A DNA stretch of 64,000 bases. It comes from an uncultured Oscillospiraceae bacterium. GTDB lineage: Bacteria; Bacillota; Clostridia; Oscillospirales; Oscillospiraceae. Under the pieces are notes generated by a model. It was not told the origin of the DNA. It made no database searches and saw only the letters and a list, made by a program, of their open reading frames with translations. Of the stretch, positions 52,782 to 64,000 are shown in pieces. The position numbers were made by a program, and so were the translations under genes. Where the stretch lies: the NCBI GenBank assembly GCA_949841355.1, contig CATKZP010000007.1, positions 1-64,000 on the forward strand, given 5' to 3'. Each line of letters starts with the position of its first letter. The stretch's first letter is position 1.

Positions 52782-52812
52782 GCCGGAGGTGCTCAATAAG
52801 GAGGCGAGGCCC

Positions 52813-54642
52813 GTGAAGGCCAGACAAAAACGCCCCGCCCTGTGGTGGGCGCGGCTGACGGCAGTGCTGGCGGCAGCGCTGGCACTGGGCTGGGCGCTGT
52901 TCAATCTCATCGTGGACCCCTTCGGCGTCTTTGGCGACCGGCTGCTGGGCTGGTGGGCCTATAACGAGACCCGCAACCCCCAGACCGCCAAGTTCTCCTA
53001 TCTGGAACAGCACCACGGGGAGTACGACTCCTACGTGGTGGGCGGCCCCTCCGCCGGGGCCTGGGACAAGGCGCTCTTGGACCAATACTTCGGCGCGGAC
53101 TTCTACAACCTCGCCCTAAACACCCAGGATGTGGGAGTTATGGAGCGGTATGTCCGCCACATCGTCGCCCGCTGCGAGGTAAAAAACCTGGTGCTCAGCC
53201 TGTCCATCGACAGCGCCGTCCTCTCCGGCCCGGAAGAGAGCTCCCTCTCCTCCGCCCTGCCCTGCCGGCTGGACGGCAGCTCTCCCCTGGCCTATTACGC
53301 CCGCTACCTGTTCGCCAACCCCCACTATAGCGTGAGCAAGCTGCTGCGCCTGCGCACGGACAGCATCGTCCCCAACGCCTTCGACGTCTTTAACGGGGAC
53401 ACCGGGGCCATCGACTACTCCGCCCAGGATGTGGAGGCCATCGGCACGGTGACGCTGGAGGAGTATTTAGCCGCCCGTCCCGCGTTCACGCAAACGGACG
53501 GTCCGCTGGAGCTGGCGGGGCTGCGCGCCTGTGTGGACAGCGTGGCCGCCATCCGGCAGCTGTGCGAGCAGGAGGGGGTAAATCTGGTGGTGGCTGTCAC
53601 CCCCATCTACGCCCCTTATCTGGCCCGCGTCTCCCAGGGGGAGCGGGAGGAATTCTTCACCGCCCTGGCTCAAACCGGCCCCTGCTGGGACTTCACCGCC
53701 TCCCCGGTGAGCTGGGACCCCCGGTATTTTTACACCCCCGCCAAGTTCCGCACCAGCGTGGCGCGGATGATGCTGGCGCGCATCTTTGACGCCCCCTCGG
53801 TCTACTGTCCCGAGGGATTTGGACGCTATATCACGGCGGACAGCGCGGCCGTTGCGCCCCCCGCCGCCGCGCCGGACCCTGACGCCTACACCGCCCAGGT
53901 GCCCATTCTGATGTACCACCACCTGTCGGAGGAGACCGTGTCCGGCGAGCGGCTGGACGAGCACCTGGCGGCGCTGGCCGGGGCGGGCTATACCTCCGTC
54001 ACCTTCGAGGAGCTGCGGGCCTATGTGGAGCGGGGCGCGCCCCTGCCGGACAAGCCGGTGGTCATCACCTTTGACGACGGATACCTGAGCAATCTGGACA
54101 TCGGCCTGCCCATCCTGGAACAGCACGGCGCGAAGGCCACCATTTACGTCATCGGCTGCTCGGTGGGCAAAGACACCTACAAGGACACCGGCAAGGCCAT
54201 GACGCCCCACTTCTCCCTGGATGAGGCCAAAGAGGCGGCGGACAGCGGCCTCATCACCATCGCCAGCCACGGCTACGACATCCACGAGGTCCAAGGCAGG
54301 GACCCCGATCCCATCCGCACCGGCGTCCTTCAGCGGGAGGACGAGACCGAGGCACAGTACGCCGCCTTCCTGCGCCAGGACTGCGCCCAGTTCAACCAGC
54401 TCATGGAGCCCGTGCTGGGCCGCCCGGCGGACGTTCTGGCCTACCCCTACGGCCGCTGCTCTATTTTGAGCGAAATTTTGTTGGCGCAGGAGGGCTTCTA
54501 CACCACCGTCACCACCATGCCCGGTCAAAACACCGTCATCAAGGGCCTGCCCCAGACCCTGCGCTCCATGAACCGCTATGATCTGGAGGCCATGGACCTC
54601 ACCGGCGAAGAGCTGCTGGACCTGCTGGCGGGCCAGGGCTGA
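52813..54642 (+). CDS. SGNH-like domain fused to polysaccharide deacetylase
   Basis: 609 residues. An N-terminal membrane anchor (about 8-30) leads to an extracellular DltD/AlgX-like SGNH domain with SYVVGGPSAGAWDKALLD carrying the Ser block. From about 360 a NodB-type deacetylase follows: VPILMYHHLSEETVSG, the metal-binding VVITFDDGYLSNLD and ITIASHGYDIH with conserved Asp and His. The protein likely edits acyl groups on cell-wall or surface polysaccharide. GTG 52813 is preferred, with AGGAGG 9 nt upstream; GTG 52789 is an alternative. It starts 31 bp after the desulfidase gene. Confidence 0.78.
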   Translation: MKARQKRPALWWARLTAVLAAALALGWALFNLIVDPFGVFGDRLLGWWAYNETRNPQTAKFSYLEQHHGEYDSYVVGGPSAGAWDKALLDQYFGADFYNLALNTQDVGVMERYVRHIVARCEVKNLVLSLSIDSAVLSGPEESSLSSALPCRLDGSSPLAYYARYLFANPHYSVSKLLRLRTDSIVPNAFDVFNGDTGAIDYSAQDVEAIGTVTLEEYLAARPAFTQTDGPLELAGLRACVDSVAAIRQLCEQEGVNLVVAVTPIYAPYLARVSQGEREEFFTALAQTGPCWDFTASPVSWDPRYFYTPAKFRTSVARMMLARIFDAPSVYCPEGFGRYITADSAAVAPPAAAPDPDAYTAQVPILMYHHLSEETVSGERLDEHLAALAGAGYTSVTFEELRAYVERGAPLPDKPVVITFDDGYLSNLDIGLPILEQHGAKATIYVIGCSVGKDTYKDTGKAMTPHFSLDEAKEAADSGLITIASHGYDIHEVQGRDPDPIRTGVLQREDETEAQYAAFLRQDCAQFNQLMEPVLGRPADVLAYPYGRCSILSEILLAQEGFYTTVTTMPGQNTVIKGLPQTLRSMNRYDLEAMDLTGEELLDLLAGQG

Positions 54643-55373: not shown

Positions 55374-55417
55374 GCCCTGCCCCTTTCGGACGTATCCGGA
55401 AGGGGCAGGGCTTTCTT
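55374..55417 (+). terminator. terminator hairpin 2
   Basis: GCCCTGCCCCTT (55374-55385) pairs with AAGGGGCAGGGC (55400-55411), then TTTCTTA. It overlaps the end of the convergent PHP gene and may serve both strands. Confidence 0.65.
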
Positions 55418-56237
55418 ACGACTCCAGCAGCCAGTCCAGCTCCAAATCCAGCGCCGCCAACTGGATATCCGGTTTCACCTGTTCCCCGTGGAAATCGCTG
55501 CCACCGGTGGTGTGGAGGTCGTACTTTTCAGCCATGTGGAGATAGCATCCCTGCTGTTCCGGGCTGTACTTGGGGTAATAGCACTCGATGGCGTCCAGTC
55601 CCCAGTCCTTGAGCCGTGCAACCAGCCCCCCCAGCTCGTCCTCCCCCAGCCCCATCTGGTAGGGATGGGCCAGGGACGCCTTCCCACCTGCGGCCTTGAC
55701 GGCCTCCACACAGGTCCGGGCGTCCGCCTTGAACCGCTTCACCTTTTTCCGGAACTCCTCCGTGTCCAGATAGCGGTCAAAGGCCTCCCGGTTGGTGGAG
55801 ACGTACCCCCGCCGCACCAGCACCTGAGCAAAGTGGGGCCGGGCGACCACCTCGCCTCCTACCAGCTCTTCCACCTCGGCAAGGTCGATGTCCACCCCCT
55901 TTTCCCGGAGGAAATTCACAATCTGATACTTTCGCTCATCCCGGCCTATCCGGAACTTCTCGCATAAACGGGCCAGCTCCGTGTCCCCGTCCCGAAAGCC
56001 GTAACCTAGGATGTGGCAGTTGTGATGGTCCTTGGCGCTCAGCTCCACACCCCGGATCACCCGCAGGCCCAGCGCTTCCCCGGCGGCTATGGCCTCCTCC
56101 ACCCCCGCGATGGTGTCGTGGTCGGTGACGGCCAGCACCTGGAGCCCCCGCTCCTTTGCCAGTCTTACCAGCTCCCCGGGCGCGTACTGCCCGTCGGAGG
56201 CGGTGGTGTGGGTGTGCAGGTCGCAGCGTACGCTCAT
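55416..56237 (-). CDS. PHP-domain phosphoesterase
   Basis: The 273-residue protein has the metal-binding pattern of the PHP superfamily: CDLHTHTTASDGQ, VTDHDTIAGVEEA, GVELSA, a central ASLAHPYQ and the closing GGSDFHGEQ. Closest in plan to nucleoside 3',5'-bisphosphate phosphatases of the YciV type. Its ATG overlaps the TGA of the phosphonopyruvate decarboxylase gene (ATGA at 56234-56237), so it is translated as part of the phosphonate operon. It might remove pAp left by sulfotransfer, which would fit the sulfotransferase-like gene upstream, but this is inference. Confidence 0.82.
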   Translation of the reverse strand: MSVRCDLHTHTTASDGQYAPGELVRLAKERGLQVLAVTDHDTIAGVEEAIAAGEALGLRVIRGVELSAKDHHNCHILGYGFRDGDTELARLCEKFRIGRDERKYQIVNFLREKGVDIDLAEVEELVGGEVVARPHFAQVLVRRGYVSTNREAFDRYLDTEEFRKKVKRFKADARTCVEAVKAAGGKASLAHPYQMGLGEDELGGLVARLKDWGLDAIECYYPKYSPEQQGCYLHMAEKYDLHTTGGSDFHGEQVKPDIQLAALDLELDWLLES

Positions 56238-57358
56238 CCGTTGTCCTCCAGCCCGGCCATGAAGGCCGCCTTGTTCTCCGCCGGGGTGGTGGTGGGACGG
56301 CCCAGGTTATCCCGCGCCCCCAGCGCGCACTTTACCTCAATAAAAGTAAGCTCATGGGACGCTTTCGTCCCCTCCAGCGCCTCTTTCAGCCTGGTCGGGC
56401 TGTCCACGGACACCGCCCTTGGATAGCCGCAGGCTCTGGCTAGAGCGGGCAGGTCCAGCAGGCCCGCCACGGTGGGCAGCCCGCCCACGGACTCGTGGGC
56501 CTCGTTGTTCAGCACCACGTGGACCAGGTTGGCGGGCCTGTTCGCCCCGATGAGCGCCATGGCCCCCAGGTGCATCAGCGCCGCCCCGTCCCCGTCCAGG
56601 CACCACACCCGCCGGTTTGGCTTTTGCAGTGCGATGCCCAGCGCGATGGACGAGCTGTGCCCCATGGAGCCCACCGTGAGAAAGTCCCGGCCGTGGCCCT
56701 GGTTTGCAGCCTCCCGCAGCTCATACACCTCCCGGCTGGCCTTGCCGGTGGTGGACACCACCGGATCGTCCCCGGAGGCCGCCAGAATCTGCCCGATGGC
56801 CTCCTCCCGGCCCATGGGATGCCCGTTGGCGAAGCTTGGCTTACTCTTGTAGTCCAACGCTCCCTTGCGCACCACGAACGCCGCCTGACGGCCCTGGGCG
56901 AACAGCGCGTGGAACTCTGCCAGCTTTTCCCTCACCTGCTCCTCCGCGGTGTCTGTTCCGATCACAAAGTACGGGATGTCCAGCGTATCCAATAGGGGCA
57001 GGGTGATTTCCCCCTGGAAGATGTGCTGGGGCTCGTCGTGTACCCCCGGCTCCCCCCGCCAGCCCACGATGAACAGGCAGGGGATGCCGTACACCTTGTC
57101 GTTGAGCAGAGACGCCGCCGGGTTCACGATGTTCCCCAGGCCGCTGTTCTGGAGATACACCACCGGCACCTTCCCCGTGGCCAGGTGGTATCCCGCCGCC
57201 AGCGCCGCCGCGTTCCCCTCGTTGGCCGCGATGATGTGATGGGCCGGGTCCAGCCCGTACCGCTCCATCAGGTAATTACACAGCGCCTTCAGCTGAGAAT
57301 CCGGCACGCCGGCGTAAAAATCCGCCTCCAGCAGCGCGGCAAAGCGCTCTATGTTCAA
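56234..57358 (-). CDS. aepY: phosphonopyruvate decarboxylase
   Basis: The TPP enzyme converts phosphonopyruvate to phosphonoacetaldehyde, pulling the unfavourable PEP mutase reaction forward. The 374-residue protein shows AANEGNAAALAAGYHLATGK with the catalytic Glu, VYLQNSGLGNIVNP, and the TPP-binding GDGAALMHLGAMALIG with following NNEAHESVGG. Length and split pyr/PP layout fit the Ppd family. It lies 24 bp after the PEP mutase gene. Confidence 0.92.
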   Translation of the reverse strand: MNIERFAALLEADFYAGVPDSQLKALCNYLMERYGLDPAHHIIAANEGNAAALAAGYHLATGKVPVVYLQNSGLGNIVNPAASLLNDKVYGIPCLFIVGWRGEPGVHDEPQHIFQGEITLPLLDTLDIPYFVIGTDTAEEQVREKLAEFHALFAQGRQAAFVVRKGALDYKSKPSFANGHPMGREEAIGQILAASGDDPVVSTTGKASREVYELREAANQGHGRDFLTVGSMGHSSSIALGIALQKPNRRVWCLDGDGAALMHLGAMALIGANRPANLVHVVLNNEAHESVGGLPTVAGLLDLPALARACGYPRAVSVDSPTRLKEALEGTKASHELTFIEVKCALGARDNLGRPTTTPAENKAAFMAGLEDNG

Positions 57359-57382
57359 AAGCTGTCCCTCCCCTTCTCCGTA

Positions 57383-58678
57383 TTACAACTCGTCAATCAG
57401 GGTGATGATTTCTTTAATGGGCATCAGCCGGTCATCCACCTCTTTGGCCCGGTGGCAGCGCAGAATGTCCTCCGCCGTTTTCTGCATGGCGGGAAACGCG
57501 CTGCGGGTGAGCTGGTTGGCGTAGATGACGATGTTCACCCCGTGGCTGGCCAGCTCCTCCTCCGTGATGGCGTTGAAGGAGGTGGGCACCACCACGATGG
57601 GCGTGTGCTTGTCCGCCGCCCGGAACCGGTCGCAGAACTCCAAAATCTCCGCCGGGTCCTTCTTCCGGCTGTGGATCATGATACCATCCGCGCCCGCGTT
57701 TGTAAAGGCGGCGGCCCGCTCCAGCGCGTCCTCCATCCCCCGATCCAAAATCAGACTCTCGATCCGGGCGATAATCATGAAGTCGTCGGTGAGCTGAGCC
57801 CGCTTCCCCGCCCGGATCTTGGCGCTGAAGCTCTCAATATCGTCCTGGGTCTGCTCCACCTCGGTGCCGAACAGGCTGTTCTTTTTCAGCCCCTTCTTGT
57901 CCTCAATGATGACGGCGGACACCCCCATGCGCTCCAGAGTGCGCACGTTGTAGACGAAGTGCTCCGCCAGCCCGCCGGTGTCCCCGTCCAGGATGATGGG
58001 CTTGGTGGTGACCTCCATGATGTCGTCGATGGTGCGCAGCCGGGAGGACAGGTCCACCAGCTCAATGTCCGGCTTGCCCTTGGCGGTGGAGTCGCACAGC
58101 GAGCTCACCCACATGGCATCGAACTGGTCCAGCCGCCCATCCTGTGCCACCACGGTCTTTTCCGCGATGAGCCCCGTCAGGCCGCTGTGGGTCTCAATAG
58201 CCTTCACCACCGGACGCAGCCCGAGAAGCTGGCGCAGCCGCCCGCGCCGGTATTCCGGCATGGCCAGCTTTTCCCGCAGCTGCCGGTCCACCTTTCTGAC
58301 CTGCTCGCTGTTGGTGTAGGCCACCTCGATGAGCTCGCCCCCCATGGCCTCCAGCTTTTCCTTCACCTGGGCCCGGATGGCCGACTCCGGCCCCGTGCGC
58401 CAGTTGTCGCCGTGGATCACATAGTCCGGACGGATGAGGGCGAGGACGTCCTCGTAAAACATATCGTCCTGAATGACCACATTGTTAACCCCATCCAGCC
58501 CACGATACAGCCGGACCCGCTCCTCCTGGGAGATGGTGGGAAAGCGGTTGTAGCGGATAAGCGCCCGGTCGGACAGCGCCCCCACAATAACCTTGCCATA
58601 GCGCTGGGCCTGCCGGATGATGTTCAGGTGCCCCTCGTGGATCACCTCTGTGCAGAAGCAGGTATATACCGTTTTCAT
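57383..58678 (-). CDS. aepX: phosphoenolpyruvate mutase with N-terminal cytidylyltransferase-like domain
   Basis: PEP mutase makes the first C-P bond. The 431-residue protein begins with a nucleotidyltransferase domain (1-130: CFCTEVIHEGHLNIIRQA with HxGH, VIVGALSDRALI, IRPDYVIHGDNWRTGP), then the isocitrate-lyase-like mutase domain (about 150-431) with the diagnostic EDKKGLKKNSLFG loop, DGDTGG metal site and IARIESLI. The fused domain is similar to cytidylyltransferases for choline or ethanolamine phosphate. It follows the transaminase gene by 12 bp. Confidence 0.93.
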   Translation of the reverse strand: MKTVYTCFCTEVIHEGHLNIIRQAQRYGKVIVGALSDRALIRYNRFPTISQEERVRLYRGLDGVNNVVIQDDMFYEDVLALIRPDYVIHGDNWRTGPESAIRAQVKEKLEAMGGELIEVAYTNSEQVRKVDRQLREKLAMPEYRRGRLRQLLGLRPVVKAIETHSGLTGLIAEKTVVAQDGRLDQFDAMWVSSLCDSTAKGKPDIELVDLSSRLRTIDDIMEVTTKPIILDGDTGGLAEHFVYNVRTLERMGVSAVIIEDKKGLKKNSLFGTEVEQTQDDIESFSAKIRAGKRAQLTDDFMIIARIESLILDRGMEDALERAAAFTNAGADGIMIHSRKKDPAEILEFCDRFRAADKHTPIVVVPTSFNAITEEELASHGVNIVIYANQLTRSAFPAMQKTAEDILRCHRAKEVDDRLMPIKEIITLIDEL

Positions 58679-58690
58679 GGCCGTCCTCCC

Positions 58691-59821
58691 TCAGCCGCCG
58701 TACTCCACGGGCACCGCCACGCCGCATTGGTCCAGCGCCTGGCGGAACACCTGAAAAAAGGCTTCAATATCCGGCGCGTCGATGGCTCCCAGGGCGCACA
58801 GGCGGAAGGTGCCCGCCGTGCCCACTTTGCCCGGGTAGATGGTGAAGCCCCGGGCGTAGCAGTAGTCGTGCACCTGCTCAAAGTTCCAGTTGGGATCGTC
58901 CGGGCAGCGCACCGCCGCCACAAGTCCCGCCTGCCACTCCCGGCGGACGGCCTCCCGGAAGCCCAGCGCCTCCAAGCCCCGGTGGATGGCGTCCATGGTC
59001 CGGGTGTGCCGGACCCACTTGGCCTGCTCTCCCTCGGCCCAGTACTCCTCCATGGCCTGAAGGGCGGCGTACACCGTCTGCACCGGGGGGGTGAACTCCA
59101 TCTCGCCGGTGCGCTCAAAGTAATCATACTGCCGGTACAGGTTGGCATAGTAGGACCGGCGGGGGTAGTCCCTGGACGCCTCGATGACATCCCGCCGTCC
59201 GACGACAAAAGACAGCCCCGTCATGGCCATCAGCCCCTTTTGGGCGGAGGCCATGCAGAAGTCGATATTGTCCGCCTCGATATCGATGGGCCGCATGGCG
59301 TAGGTACTGGTGGTGTCGGTGACAAAAGCCGCTCCGCAAGCGTGGACCAGCGCGCCCATCTCCCGGATGGGGTTGAGAAGGCCCGTGCCGGTCTCGTTGT
59401 GGGTGGCGTACACCAGGGCGATATCCGGGTTTTCCCGAAGAGATGTCTCCACCGCAGTCAAATCCGCGGGCCGGTCATAGGGCAGTTTCAGATCGACGTG
59501 GGGCAGGCGGTAGGACCGGCAGATCTCCGCAGCCCGGGCACTGTAGGCTCCGTTGTGGACGATAAGCGCCTTTTTGTCCTCCGGCAGCAGAGAGTTGAGG
59601 CACACGTCCATGCACAGCGTGCCGGAGCCGCAGAACAGCACCGCAGCATACTGCTCTGGATCGCCGTGCACCACCCGCACCAGATCACTCCGCAGCTGCG
59701 CCATGCGCCCGGCGAATTCCCGCTCCCGCGGGCAGATGTCGGGCGCCACCTGGGCCAGCTTCACGGTGTCCGTGGTAGTGGCCGGTCCCGGATTGAGCAG
59801 GATGTTCCGTTTGATATCCAT
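58691..59821 (-). CDS. phnW: 2-aminoethylphosphonate-pyruvate transaminase
   Basis: The 376-residue class V aminotransferase interconverts phosphonoacetaldehyde and 2-aminoethylphosphonate; beside the mutase and decarboxylase it runs in the biosynthetic direction. Key segments: NILLNPGPATTTDTVKLAQV, FCGSGTLCMDVCLNSLL, the HNETGTGLLNPI loop, and the PLP lysine in CMASAQKGLMAMTGLSFV. It lies 17 bp after the nucleotidyltransferase gene. Confidence 0.93.
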   Translation of the reverse strand: MDIKRNILLNPGPATTTDTVKLAQVAPDICPREREFAGRMAQLRSDLVRVVHGDPEQYAAVLFCGSGTLCMDVCLNSLLPEDKKALIVHNGAYSARAAEICRSYRLPHVDLKLPYDRPADLTAVETSLRENPDIALVYATHNETGTGLLNPIREMGALVHACGAAFVTDTTSTYAMRPIDIEADNIDFCMASAQKGLMAMTGLSFVVGRRDVIEASRDYPRRSYYANLYRQYDYFERTGEMEFTPPVQTVYAALQAMEEYWAEGEQAKWVRHTRTMDAIHRGLEALGFREAVRREWQAGLVAAVRCPDDPNWNFEQVHDYCYARGFTIYPGKVGTAGTFRLCALGAIDAPDIEAFFQVFRQALDQCGVAVPVEYGG

Positions 59822-59838
59822 AGCGATTCCTCCTCGGC

Positions 59839-60627
59839 TCAGCCGATGTCGTAGCTTCTGTCAAACGCCTTCAGCTCGCGGAAGGTGTCGATTTCGGTGA
59901 CATCCCCGTCCTCGCAGGGCCGTACCGCCACCTGGTAGTTCTCCCGGCAAAATACCAGCGGCACCTGCTCCCAGTACCGCTCCCGCCCGCCGGGCTGTTC
60001 ATAGACCTTCTTCAGGTCCCGGGCCAGCTTTTCCCCGTCCGGCCCATCCCAGTAGGAGATGCCCACCATCTGCCAGCAGTGCTCGCCGCCGATCTTCTCC
60101 TGGGTGATGACGCCATCCTCCACCTCAAAGCACCAGTCGTCGGTGCGCGCCTTGGAAATGGCCAGGAAGTTGGATCGGTACTGGTAGGGCTGGATGAGCC
60201 CAGGGTTGGCCAGCACCAGATCCGCCTCCAGCACATACGCGTTGGACAGCAGGTGCCGGGCGCACAGGGCGGAGGAGATGTTGTTGGTCTCATTGTAGAC
60301 GGGGTTTTCCAGAAACCGGATCATGGGATACTGGTAGAGCAGCTGATCAAACTGCTCTGCCAGATAGCCCCGGACGAGATAGATTTCCTCAATCCCGGCG
60401 GCGAGGCAGGCGTCCAGCAGGCTGTCAATGATCCGCTTGCCGCGGACCCGGACCAAAGGCTTTGGGGTGTTGAAGGTGATGGGGGCCAGGCGGCTGCCGA
60501 AGCCCGCCGCCAGAAATACCGCTCGCCGGACGCGGTAGGGCTCCAGGGCCGCAATCTCTGCGTCCGCAGCCTGTCCACTGGCAAAGCGGGCGTACAGGCG
60601 GCCAAATTCACGTTCGGCTAATTTCAT
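59839..60627 (-). CDS. pntC: 2-aminoethylphosphonate cytidylyltransferase (PntC-like)
   Basis: The 262-residue protein carries a LicC-type nucleotidyltransferase domain from about residue 34: VFLAAGFGSRLAPITFNTPK, PLVRVRGKRIIDSLL, NETNNISSALCARHLL and LEADLVLANP. PntC proteins make CMP-AEP from CTP and AEP for transfer onto lipids or glycans. The 33-residue N-terminal helical lead fits this family. Assignment to AEP rather than choline rests on the operon. Its ATG overlaps the stop of the upstream gene (60624-60627). Confidence 0.82.
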   Translation of the reverse strand: MKLAEREFGRLYARFASGQAADAEIAALEPYRVRRAVFLAAGFGSRLAPITFNTPKPLVRVRGKRIIDSLLDACLAAGIEEIYLVRGYLAEQFDQLLYQYPMIRFLENPVYNETNNISSALCARHLLSNAYVLEADLVLANPGLIQPYQYRSNFLAISKARTDDWCFEVEDGVITQEKIGGEHCWQMVGISYWDGPDGEKLARDLKKVYEQPGGRERYWEQVPLVFCRENYQVAVRPCEDGDVTEIDTFRELKAFDRSYDIG

Positions 60628-61628
60628 AATAATTTACAGATAGATTCATCGGACGGATTTGTTCCCGGTCTGGGAAACCACATCTTCTGCAGCGGTCCTT
60701 CCAAACTTACTTCCATTGCGTTTGGTTTTTGTTTCCATATCTGATTGGCAAAATATACATCATGAATGGCAATGCCAATATTATATACCAGTATTCTCTC
60801 TTGCTTGCTGGTTCGGCCAGGTACATTACCATGGATGACTTCACTGACTTCCGCAAGACTTTTGAACTGGTCAAAATACTGAAAGTCTTTGATATGTCCA
60901 ATATCATCAGTAAATATTTTGTCAAATTCCAGATCGCAGTTCTGAAACCCCATTGTATGGACCGGTATTACCGTACACCCCGGCTGATACATATTTGCTT
61001 CGGCAAAATTTTTCTCTGCGCAGGTTACGCAGGAAAGTATCACCTGACTGCTCCGAATCAATGATTCCGTAGAATCATGCAGGACAAAGCGAAGCTTTTC
61101 AGTGCTCTCATACCGCTTCATAAATTGCCTCTCCTGCCCCTTATAACGCAGAAGATGAATCTCCATAGACCGCTCTTGGTTCACTACAGATAGAATATCC
61201 ATCGTCGCTGTGGCCGTAATTCCAAGGCCCATAATTCCGACCGTAGTAAAATTTTGGACGCCAAATAATTGGGCGGAATATGCCGCGACAGCTCCTGTCC
61301 GCATGGCCGTAATGTAGCTTCCATCCAAAACGGCAATCAGCTGCCCAGAACTCAACTCATATAGCAGAATTTGGCTTGTCAAACTAGGACCCTGCGTTTT
61401 TTTAGGATGCCGCGTAATAATTTTTACGCCCATTCGGTCTTCACTCTGGAGAATACAGGGCATGACGTTGTAAAAAACATTCCCAGCCTGACGCATACTG
61501 ATTTTAGGCGGCAGTATCGCAGTTTCTTTTTCTTGAATTACGTTTTCGACCCAGTGGTAAGCATCCAGGGGTGAAATACCCAAAGATAAGATTGCTGAAT
61601 GGTCAATGATTTTCATAATGTGATACAT
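60624..61628 (-). CDS. ornithine cyclodeaminase/mu-crystallin-family protein
   Basis: The 334-residue protein has the family plan: N-terminal ILPPKISMRQ, SYITAMRTGAVAAYSAQLFG and a Rossmann segment VGIMGLGITATATMDIL, then a C-terminal VIHGNVPGRTSKQERILVYN region. Members are cyclodeaminases, imine or amino-acid dehydrogenases, so it may modify the AEP amino group or a linked amino acid. Start ATG 61628 or 61616. The gene is strikingly AT-rich beside its neighbours, indicating separate acquisition, yet it is coupled to pntC by an ATGA overlap. Confidence 0.8.
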   Translation of the reverse strand: MYHIMKIIDHSAILSLGISPLDAYHWVENVIQEKETAILPPKISMRQAGNVFYNVMPCILQSEDRMGVKIITRHPKKTQGPSLTSQILLYELSSGQLIAVLDGSYITAMRTGAVAAYSAQLFGVQNFTTVGIMGLGITATATMDILSVVNQERSMEIHLLRYKGQERQFMKRYESTEKLRFVLHDSTESLIRSSQVILSCVTCAEKNFAEANMYQPGCTVIPVHTMGFQNCDLEFDKIFTDDIGHIKDFQYFDQFKSLAEVSEVIHGNVPGRTSKQERILVYNIGIAIHDVYFANQIWKQKPNAMEVSLEGPLQKMWFPRPGTNPSDESICKLL

Positions 61629-61727
61629 TCCTCTCCGCTTCCGGTCCTAACAGATTCTTAACGAGTTGATGCTATCGGCTCAAATCTTCCTCTGAACAAC
61701 ACACATAGAGCTATTTCTCGCCCGCTG

Positions 61728-62234
61728 TCAGACAATACCGAACAGCTTCTCCAGCCGCGCCACAATGGCTTCCGGCGTCTCCTGATCGTCATTTTCCACC
61801 ACTACATCTGGCATTTTCGGCTCGTCCCAGGGCAGATCCACCCCTACAACCTCCTTCGCGCCGGATGAGTACAGCTTTTTTTGATCCCGGCGGTAGAGGG
61901 TTTCCCAGGTTACTTTGATATAAATTTCCTTGTAATTGTCGATGTTGGCCCGGTTCCAGTCCCGGATCTCGTCATACATCGAAATGGAGCAAATCACCAC
62001 ATCAATCCCCTGCTCCGCCAGGGCGCGGCACAGGCGGAACCGCGCTTTCGCGTCCTTGAGCCGCGCAGCGGTGGAATAGCCCGTGCGCTCAAATACTACG
62101 CCGTCCATGGCGTCGCCGTCCGTACAGAACACGTTGGGTTTCCTTGCCTTGAGACGGCGGTAGAACAGCCCGCCAATGGTGGTCTTGCCCGCCCCAGCAA
62201 GACCCGTAAAAAAATAAACAGTCCCTTTTTCCAT
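61728..62234 (-). CDS. adenylylsulfate (APS) kinase-like protein
   Basis: The 168-residue P-loop kinase has Walker A FFTGLAGAGKTTIGGLF, TDGDAMDGVVF in place of the usual LDGD, and the PWDEPKMPDVVVEN end typical of CysC proteins. CysC makes PAPS from APS. No ATP sulfurylase lies in the window. Paired with the sulfotransferase-like gene 9 bp upstream it may supply PAPS, though CysC-like kinases in surface-polymer clusters can have other substrates. Confidence 0.78.
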   Translation of the reverse strand: MEKGTVYFFTGLAGAGKTTIGGLFYRRLKARKPNVFCTDGDAMDGVVFERTGYSTAARLKDAKARFRLCRALAEQGIDVVICSISMYDEIRDWNRANIDNYKEIYIKVTWETLYRRDQKKLYSSGAKEVVGVDLPWDEPKMPDVVVENDDQETPEAIVARLEKLFGIV

Positions 62235-62243
62235 AATTCCTCC

Positions 62244-63986
62244 TTAATGATATAGCGGCCGGTTCAGCAGCGCCGGATCCAGCTCCAGTTTCGGCATCAT
62301 CCGCAGCGGCTGGCCGTTTTTGTTGATGAAATACAGATTCCCCATCAGCCGCCTGGCCAGCTTCAGGCGCACCGTGTCATACTTCCCTTTGATTTTGGAA
62401 ATGACTTCCTCCTGTGTGTCCTCATCCATCGCTTTTTTACCGCCGTCCTCTGCTACCTCGGCTTCGGAAAGGATATTGTTTTTCCAACTGAGGGAAATAA
62501 ATTTGTTGATTTTGGTGAAGCCATCCACCCACTTTTCGATTTGTGCCTCATCCACCGGCCCGCCGTCGTAGTAGTGGAAGTCATAGCCGTAAAATTCATA
62601 GGCGTCCCGCAGGCAGAACTCGATGAACGCCCGCTCCTCATCGGTGGCATAGTCGTCGTAGGTGCGGTAGACCGTGGCGGTGTCAAAGCCCACCACGTTG
62701 CCCGCCGCCGTCTCCACGTCGTGGACGCCTTTCTCCGAGCAGTAGGTCATACTCTCGGTATAGGGGAGGTCCAGAAACGCCGCCAGGGCAGTGAAGGTGG
62801 CCTTCGGGTTGGTCTTGCCGTCCTCAAAGCGTACCAGCACGCTGTCCTTATACAGCCGGTCTTCTGGGTCGATCATAAAGCTGCGGTTCAGGGCGCGATC
62901 CATGGCCAAGTCACTGGCAACGGTGCGCTTCCCTCCCTCGGCATGAAGAAGGCTTCGCTTTTCGATCTGCCAGCGAAAGGTGGCGGCTTCACTGGTGGTG
63001 AAGCGGCGCAGGGGGGTAAATGTTTTGATATATTTGAACGCCTGGAATATTGGGGAACTGCGGATCCTGTCATATTGCTCGCACAGCAGAATAGTGCGGT
63101 CCCGTTCGCCGTGGGCCATGTCATAGTCGATATGGCTCAAGTGGGGTTGGAAAAACAGGGCGGGGGCAATGCGGGCAGCGTGGTCCAGTCCGCCCATAAA
63201 TGGGCCCTGGAGCATAAAAAGCATGACCAGAATATCTTTATCCGAGCGGTTCCCGTTCCAATAGCACTGCTGCGTCACTTCGTTATTAAAGTGCGGCAGG
63301 TTGCCTGCGGCGCGATACCTGTCCGCATCTTCAAACACCGCTTTGGCCTTTTGAATAGTTTCCTCCGTATAATCCAGCATGATGGAGGGGATGCAGATCA
63401 GATTTGGATGGTTGTCAAATACCTCGTTGAAGAAGTCGCCGCCGTTGTCGGAGGACAGCTGGGTGTGCCAGATCAACCGGTGAATGTCCCTCACGCCGAT
63501 GGACTTCACCGGATACTGGCTATAGTCGATGCCATACATCTCCTTGAAATCAATGGGGTAGCGGGAGATCTCCTCCCCAAACAGAAAGACAATTTTTTTG
63601 TCCTCCAACATACGGCGCATATTCAGCACCTGCAAATGGGCGCAGAACACCTCCCAGCTTGCGTAGTGAAGGTAAAGATGATTTTCCCGCCCGATATCCT
63701 CGCTGGGGCGGACGTTGTCAGCCAAGTATTCCAGCTCATACTGGGAATAAACATCCTTTGCCAGGATGGGATTGTCCAAGTTTTTGAAAAAGTTTCGGCT
63801 CACCACCGGGTGGTTGTAGTTCACATAGCTGCCAAACTCCCCCTTTTCCAGGTCAAAGGGCAGGTAGCCGTTGTCGTCAAAGGGATAAAAACGCAGGGGC
63901 AAGTCCTCAAATTTTGGGAAGTCCCGCCGGAATAAATAGGAATATTTGGCCAGCGCCGCGCAGTTTTTCTCATACCGGGACTTCAT
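62244..63986 (-). CDS. large sulfotransferase-like protein, start possibly beyond the window
   Basis: At least 580 residues. The C-terminal part (about 360-430) has VLVRFEDGKTNPKATFTALAAFLDLPYTE, which resembles the 3'-phosphate region of sulfotransferases, and a similar fold is possible upstream (KKIVFLFGEEISRYP). The first ATG at 63986 lacks a visible ribosome site in the 14 bp left, and the frame stays open to the edge, so the true start may lie outside. First known gene of the operon with the APS-kinase-like gene. The function is uncertain. Confidence 0.55.
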   Translation of the reverse strand: MKSRYEKNCAALAKYSYLFRRDFPKFEDLPLRFYPFDDNGYLPFDLEKGEFGSYVNYNHPVVSRNFFKNLDNPILAKDVYSQYELEYLADNVRPSEDIGRENHLYLHYASWEVFCAHLQVLNMRRMLEDKKIVFLFGEEISRYPIDFKEMYGIDYSQYPVKSIGVRDIHRLIWHTQLSSDNGGDFFNEVFDNHPNLICIPSIMLDYTEETIQKAKAVFEDADRYRAAGNLPHFNNEVTQQCYWNGNRSDKDILVMLFMLQGPFMGGLDHAARIAPALFFQPHLSHIDYDMAHGERDRTILLCEQYDRIRSSPIFQAFKYIKTFTPLRRFTTSEAATFRWQIEKRSLLHAEGGKRTVASDLAMDRALNRSFMIDPEDRLYKDSVLVRFEDGKTNPKATFTALAAFLDLPYTESMTYCSEKGVHDVETAAGNVVGFDTATVYRTYDDYATDEERAFIEFCLRDAYEFYGYDFHYYDGGPVDEAQIEKWVDGFTKINKFISLSWKNNILSEAEVAEDGGKKAMDEDTQEEVISKIKGKYDTVRLKLARRLMGNLYFINKNGQPLRMMPKLELDPALLNRPLYH

Positions 63987-64000
63987 CAGCTTTACGTTGG

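Follow-up and report, generated by a model that had tools for sequence, protein, structure and literature searches.

An operon for 2-aminoethylphosphonate beside a flagellin gene in an Oscillospiraceae genome probably decorates flagella through a sulfotransferase-like enzyme

A 64,000-nt stretch of DNA from an uncultured Oscillospiraceae bacterium (the window, C7:1-64000; genome of 2.76 Mb in 44 contigs) contains a minus-strand operon that probably makes 2-aminoethylphosphonate (AEP) and attaches it to flagella via a sulfotransferase-like enzyme. We refer to this enzyme as FmtX, a name coined for use in the present analysis only. All eight operon genes described in an earlier note, which had recognized genes for phosphoenolpyruvate (PEP) mutase, decarboxylase, transaminase and a PntC-type enzyme, were confirmed, and three of the products passed NCBIfam cut-offs. 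The genes were closely packed, with intergenic gaps from FmtX to the PHP gene of 9, 99, -4, 17, 12, 24 and -4 nt. The earlier note had placed the AEP-attaching transferase past the right edge of the window. The gene found there encodes a flagellin (C7:64478-66202, PF00669), and the best candidate for the transferase is the sulfotransferase-fold protein already in the operon. Read 5' to 3' from outside the window, the order is flagellin, a GC hairpin and then the following genes:

62244..64000, minus strand (start codon at C7:64244, outside the window): FmtX, sulfotransferase-fold transferase of 666 aa, N-terminal helices followed by the catalytic fold
61728..62234, minus strand: kinase of the adenosine 5'-phosphosulfate (APS) kinase family, proposed 3'-OH kinase of the cytidine monophosphate (CMP) conjugate CMP-AEP, without the motifs ISP, RExNIxR and DGDxxR
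60624..61628, minus strand: oxidoreductase of the ornithine-cyclodeaminase/mu-crystallin family, G+C at third codon positions 0.44, possibly a recent tailoring insert
59839..60627, minus strand: LicC/PntC-like cytidylyltransferase, proposed from sequence similarity to make CMP-AEP
58691..59821, minus strand: AEP aminotransferase, TIGR03301 above cut-off
57383..58678, minus strand: PEP mutase with an N-terminal PF01467 cytidylyltransferase domain, EDKKGLKKNS present
56234..57358, minus strand: phosphonopyruvate decarboxylase, TIGR03297 above cut-off
55416..56237, minus strand: PHP-family phosphatase with a PHP domain, proposed recycler of nucleoside 3',5'-bisphosphate

Judged by sequence similarity, the operon encodes a route from PEP to CMP-AEP, in support of the full route that had been read from the window. 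The scores were 414 bits for PEP mutase (TIGR02320, cut-off 320), 466 bits for phosphonopyruvate decarboxylase (cut-off 312) and 435 bits for AEP aminotransferase (cut-off 361), and the EDKxxxxxNS motif of PEP mutase was kept. The nearest Protein Data Bank (PDB) entry to the N-terminal domain of PEP mutase, a domain that the earlier note had not mentioned, was 5x3d. The separate nucleotidyltransferase matched 1jyk (a phosphocholine cytidylyltransferase that we take to be LicC; 103 bits) and then 6pd1 (presumably PntC; 54 bits). Of the nine AEP cassettes, that of the window alone had the ornithine-cyclodeaminase-like gene, and three others had a methyltransferase gene; the ornithine-cyclodeaminase-like enzyme may N-modify AEP.

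The linkage of FmtX to flagellin was surveyed with a two-peptide pattern scan of a contig collection covering 84,980 species, from which the best 80 of 86 confirmed FmtX loci were taken. Together with the two cassettes of the window's own genome and the G106 locus, 83 loci were analysed; they are not independent, L048 and L055 being among close relatives. By NCBI family, 44 of the 80 scan loci belonged to Oscillospiraceae, 23 had no family, and the rest were spread across six families. The FmtX family is narrow: of 120 genomes from the bacterial family, 5 had matches, and so did 5 of the 398 from the phylum, with the window's own genome counted both times. At the 80 further loci, most FmtX homologues had flagellin on one side and an APS-kinase-like kinase on the other; a donor module that varied between loci came next, in many cases with a PHP gene. 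Among the 68 loci whose upstream sequence is 500 nt or longer, 59 had a flagellin match ending no more than 400 nt before FmtX, and at 68 of 76 loci the kinase began no more than 400 nt after FmtX; both linkages held in all AEP cassettes (9/9 each). At the 24 loci with both flanks, the kinase was downstream in 22 and upstream in none, PHP in 14 and none, and a cytidylyltransferase-type gene in 15 and one. Among the nine flagellin misses, L030, L033 and L036 had a single open reading frame (ORF) of 409-419 aa between flagellin and FmtX; in L030 and L036 this ORF encodes the flagellin lysine methylase FliB, with 148 and 167 bits against a cut-off of 85. In L054 and L077 a flagellin ORF adjoined FmtX and the homology match stopped earlier, in L075 the flagellin was 432 nt away, and in L087, L092 and L093 no flagellin match was found upstream of FmtX.

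The gap between flagellin and FmtX in our genome contained an 11-bp all-GC stem followed by a T run (C7:64306-64282). Such a hairpin with a T run occupied the corresponding gap at 35 of 65 loci and was absent from that of the second cassette of the genome (contig C34). Terminator-like sites in the stretch concerned numbered five against 2.7 expected.

These data bear on the target of AEP. The surface destination proposed earlier is supported, and flagellin, not a polysaccharide, is most likely the target. An enzyme encoded elsewhere might instead place AEP on a surface polysaccharide or on a glycan of flagellin, with the flagellin linkage reflecting co-regulation only. In favour of this reading, PMC8861647 cites AEP on the Bacteroides fragilis capsule and shows 2-AEP on N-acetylglucosamine (GlcNAc) of the Clostridioides difficile type A flagellin glycan, where its origin is left unexplained and no pepM was found. 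The present operon shares with that case the proposed pairing of AEP and flagellin and differs in having a predicted AEP route that adjoins the flagellin gene. A Pfam scan of 20 of the 28 ORFs in the 34 kb rightward, where the earlier note had suggested looking for glycosyltransferases, a flippase and LicD, recovered none of them and one GH94 protein, and the FmtX-flagellin neighbourhood holds across donor types. We regard assembly on a glycan by an enzyme elsewhere as quite improbable. Beside PEP mutase, antibiotic-type tailoring or export genes were absent; the flanks consist of flagellin and unrelated genes (the left flank assessed partly by eye), which speaks against the soluble phosphonate antibiotic cluster that had been raised as the competing outcome. 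Immediately to the left of the operon, the plus strand carries a gene (52789-54642) for a 617-aa protein with a C-terminal polysaccharide deacetylase (PgaB-like) domain.

The donor modules behind FmtX were diverse. Using rough labels from marker genes located by tblastn, we sorted the 83 loci into sulfate (4), AEP (9), phosphoramidate (6), IspD/TarI-type cytidylyltransferase (18) and TagD-type cytidylyltransferase (7) modules, PEP mutase modules other than AEP (four with iron alcohol dehydrogenase, four with radical SAM, one another set), kinase-methyltransferase fusion modules (13), and loci that were unclassified or cut by contig ends (17). Enzymes of the cytidine diphosphate (CDP)-polyol type are among the module contents. 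The phosphoramidate module contained a PRK05849 protein (tested in L033, where it scored 944 bits against a cut-off of 501), which we take to pair with Cj1418, a protein whose best match was gamma-glutamyl-CDP-amidate hydrolase (106 of 250 bits, tested in L085), a LicC-like enzyme and a methyltransferase. Several modules can occur in one assembly: CAJTGJ01 has AEP (L025), radical-SAM phosphonate (L039) and fusion (L050) cassettes. In phosphonate cassettes, a radical SAM protein was fused to a cytidylyltransferase-like domain (L019 8395-9822, from G106, by Pfam; also L039, L041 and L097), possibly a new phosphonate tailoring enzyme.

The window's own genome has further flagellin loci. Contig C34 has flagellin together with an FmtX sharing 59% identity with that of the window, an APS kinase and an ATP sulfurylase (303 bits, just below the TIGR00339 cut-off of 323), by sequence a set for 3'-phosphoadenosine 5'-phosphosulfate (PAPS) and a sulfotransferase behind flagellin; sulfate thus appears to have its own flagellin cassette. 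All four sulfate cassettes (C34, L045, L051, L094) had genes for a Mor-type helix-turn-helix protein, an antiporter-like protein (by eye) and a pyruvate-kinase-barrel protein after ATP sulfurylase; those of C34 are at L008 691-3286. On contig C19 (L020/L117, ~650-785), flagellin is followed by a decayed FmtX start with a 44-codon match and then unrelated sequence, a pattern suggestive of either loss of the cassette or a recombination event at the 5' end of FmtX. One more flagellin_N match, the fifth in the genome, lies in a 995-aa frame (C9:96890-97135; L112, L118).

The window FmtX gene, extended to C7:64244, encodes 666 aa; the 580-aa version read earlier had been clipped by the window edge. 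FmtX matched no Pfam or NCBIfam family and did not reach the Pfam sulfotransferase gathering score; of 52 homologues, six showed a weak Sulfotransfer_3 match, at best with E 0.0044, and phmmer against PDB sequences gave no matches. An AlphaFold model from a 52-row alignment (predicted local distance difference test 91.7, predicted template modelling score 0.89) showed helices at residues 1-100 and then a mixed fold. In a Foldseek search of PDB with this model, ranks 1-14 were all sulfotransferases, 11 of them with E <= 0.001, and the top match was 3ap3, the tyrosylprotein sulfotransferase TPST2 with adenosine 3',5'-bisphosphate (PAP; E 1.1e-5). TPST1/2 are thus the closest solved fold to the predicted model, act on protein acceptors and have PAP-bound structures; they differ in that identity to FmtX was 10-14% in ranks 1-11 and most FmtX loci lack PAPS genes. 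A strand-loop-helix at residues 256-276, with the loop LSS[D/H]NGGDFF, resembles the 5'-phosphosulfate loop when placed by eye against general sulfotransferase anatomy. In the family this loop is mostly Ser/Thr-[Asp/His]-Asn-Gly-Gly, in place of the usual sulfotransferase loop Pro-Arg-Ser-Gly-Thr-Thr. Residues 405-429, likewise placed by eye from sulfotransferase motifs, presumably correspond to the 3'-phosphate site; here K407, R413 and T416 were kept in 81 of 81 rows whatever the donor module. In a distant relative (G427; L114 6322-8388), part of the N-terminal region is joined to a glycosyltransferase domain, which is in line with the N-terminal region recognising the acceptor. The L114 locus also holds a protein that by eye resembles a Maf flagellin glycosyltransferase.

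The window kinase matched PF01583 (APS_kinase) with 77.6 bits (cut-off 21.1), a family that phosphorylates the 3'-OH of a nucleotide. The motifs ISP[LFY] and RExNIxR occurred in all four sulfate-module (ATP-sulfurylase-linked) kinases and in none of 66 others, the window kinase included among those without them. Because [IV]SP[LYF] was kept in six of seven solved APS kinases aligned (the seventh reads IAP) and RExNIxR was variable, ISP is the better APS-kinase mark. All nine AEP-cassette kinases lacked the Arg of DGDxxR. ATP sulfurylase adjoined four of five APS-type kinases (the contig of the fifth stops 139 nt past FmtX) and none of 69 non-APS kinases; for 62 of these 69, the downstream sequence extends for 3 kb or more. 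No ATP sulfurylase was present in the window operon, and the only one found in the genome was that of C34. By its sequence, the window kinase is probably not an APS kinase. Since it lacks both motifs and has no neighbouring ATP sulfurylase, co-decoration of one polymer with sulfate and phosphonate by this operon, as the earlier note had envisaged, is unlikely; sulfate also has its cassette on C34.

Trees of kinase and FmtX were compared over 51 shared rows with 200 shuffles, leaving out the kinase-methyltransferase fusion class because the kinase itself defines that class, which would be circular. The kinase tree required 11 module-label changes against 28-34 when shuffled, with the sulfate, AEP and radical-SAM classes at one each, and the FmtX tree 19 against 26-34, with sulfate at four and phosphoramidate at three; before the restriction to shared rows, with the fusion class included, the counts were 12 against 37-46 and 27 against 35-47. 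The four sulfate kinases were 75-96% identical and their FmtX partners 49-65%, and FmtX pairs from different modules reached 79% identity, the sulfate FmtX of C34 and the phosphoramidate FmtX of L033 being 70% identical. Kinase and FmtX therefore both track the module beyond chance, the kinase more closely; from these label changes and identities, the kinase appears to travel with the donor chemistry and FmtX to be more often retained and re-equipped. Within FmtX, position 266 was Asp in all nine AEP loci and in 2 of 56 other classified loci, and also in the unclassified L026, L029 and L079. L026 and L029 are two FmtX genes of Pseudoflavonifractor sp. 524-17, an isolate to judge by its name; both fall in the AEP clade and are truncated by contig ends. 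The 8.7 kb of L079 held genes resembling the AEP importer phnS2/T2/U2 (best matches, below cut-offs) and a PntC-like gene, and no PEP mutase. Gly269 was changed in five of six phosphoramidate loci, with three independent origins, a number too small for a sign test, and in 0 of 59 others; in the sixth, L091, the raw alignment reads Ile at this position in a record that contains N bases.

FmtX might instead be a true PAPS-dependent flagellin sulfotransferase whose kinase uses APS from elsewhere, while the AEP genes serve another transferase. Its predicted fold is nearest TPST, the kinase belongs to Pfam APS_kinase and an ATP sulfurylase is encoded on C34; C34, however, has an APS kinase of its own, the non-sulfate kinases lack the motifs kept in the sulfate modules and stand at loci without ATP sulfurylase, and the kinase tracks donor type rather than being generic. 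Among the mapped AEP-cassette genes, no other transferase was recognised except methyltransferases (3/9). We consider sulfation by the window FmtX unlikely.

We propose the following scheme for the window operon and hold it, as a whole, to be reasonably likely. PEP mutase, phosphonopyruvate decarboxylase and AEP aminotransferase would produce AEP, and the LicC/PntC-like enzyme would activate it to CMP-AEP. The APS-kinase-family kinase would phosphorylate the cytidine 3'-OH, giving 3'-phospho-CMP-AEP, an analogue of PAPS. FmtX, through its N-terminal helical domain and sulfotransferase fold, would bind flagellin and transfer the AEP phosphonyl group to it or to a flagellin-borne acceptor, freeing cytidine 3',5'-bisphosphate, which the PHP enzyme would hydrolyse to recycle the nucleotide. 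The hairpin that separates flagellin from FmtX resembles a terminator and would hold the enzymes at a lower level than flagellin. The gene content and order, the link to flagellin, the predicted fold, the swapping of modules and the covariation are observations, whereas the substrates of kinase and PHP enzyme, the donor and acceptor of FmtX and the effect of the hairpin are inferred. A shorter route, in which FmtX uses CMP-AEP directly or the kinase acts on the acceptor or a pathway intermediate and no 3'-phospho-CMP-AEP is formed, would have to accommodate the adjoining kinase, from a family acting on nucleotide 3'-OH groups, the invariant K407, R413 and T416 at the presumed 3'-phosphate site, and the common proximity of PHP (within 9 kb of FmtX in 34 of 52 loci). 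It would be simpler, the PntC passages of PMC6697681 describe activation as far as a CMP-phosphonate, and L079 has FmtX and a PntC-like gene with no adjacent kinase. We judge this shorter route to have a low probability.

Several observations weigh against the proposed scheme, the kinase-free L079 among them. The operon nucleotidyltransferase is nearer to the phosphocholine enzyme than to PntC. The best family for the PHP protein, the 3',5'-bisphosphatase NF041577, scored 177 bits against a cut-off of 400, with RNase RNM at 170, and 18 of 52 loci, among them the AEP loci L025, L027 and L034, had no PHP gene as near as 9 kb. The Foldseek TM-scores of FmtX were low (~0.25 by query length), with root-mean-square deviations of 7.7-12 A in ranks 1-11. 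The two other classified loci with Asp266, L056 and L047, have non-AEP modules by the markers used, and because the AEP FmtX proteins form one clade, the correlation of Asp266 with AEP counts as one event. Several solved APS kinases also lack RExNIxR. Among non-APS-kinase loci with at least 6 kb downstream, 13 of 49 had no cytidylyltransferase-type gene above 50 bits: all ten such kinase-methyltransferase fusions, L078, L084 and L091, whose LicC-like gene scores 43. These fusions (L032, L042, L072, L088, L100 and eight more) share a common methyltransferase domain (13/13); a PHP gene lay no more than 9 kb away at 8 of the 13 loci, and no nucleotidyltransferase was found nearby. The sole same-genus genome sampled (G066) was without FmtX.

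Parts of the scheme have known counterparts. Partly from a cited title, we take Cj1415 to be the 3'-kinase step of the Campylobacter jejuni O-methyl phosphoramidate capsule pathway (Cj1415-Cj1418). According to PMC11800397, the phosphoramidate enzymes of Campylobacter yield CDP-phosphoramidate 3'-phosphate, which is named there as the likely donor; this serves as the precedent for a kinase that acts on the 3'-OH of a cytidine conjugate. That pathway resembles ours in cytidylyl activation and a 3'-phospho-cytidine donor, and relatives of its glutamine kinase, cytidylyltransferase and CDP-amidate hydrolase were found inside six FmtX cassettes; its target is the capsule, whereas the FmtX operon is flagellin-linked and the group is AEP. 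CMP activation of phosphonates, and fusions of PF01467 or PF12804 domains to PEP mutase, were already known (Rice et al. 2019, PMC6697681, main text). The PntC pathways described there share with the window operon the PEP mutase-PF01467 fusion, a LicC/PntC-like enzyme and the CMP-phosphonate logic; the terms kinase, sulfotransferase and flagell- are absent from that main text, and the activation proposed here goes one step further. The same text reports that the Fom1 domain makes CMP-hydroxyethylphosphonate, a chemistry that by analogy would fit the alcohol-dehydrogenase modules. Among the matches listed from the openly licensed literature, titles and abstract openings gave no description of a flagellin cassette combining sulfotransferase, APS kinase and AEP genes, nor of bacterial flagellin sulfation by such genes.

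What is special in the proposed system is a PAPS-like 3'-phosphonucleotide donor logic with exchangeable modules. There is about an even chance that a single FmtX family uses many 3'-phosphonucleotide donors, namely PAPS, 3'-phospho-CMP-AEP, other CMP-phosphonates, 3'-phospho-CDP-phosphoramidate and 3'-phospho-CDP-polyols, with modules and their matched 3'-kinases swapped behind flagellin genes and several flagellin chemistries per genome, which together would form a new class of protein modification. The abstract of PMC6697681 calls phosphonate tailoring steps enigmatic. For the step from CMP-phosphonate to the cell surface, the FmtX family offers a candidate transferase and acceptor as well as an additional activation step. 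If true, the scheme would account for the presence of APS-kinase-like and sulfotransferase-like genes in settings that do not involve sulfate, and it suggests that Oscillospiraceae and their relatives vary flagellin, a target of innate immunity and phages, through the exchange of small-molecule decoration cassettes.

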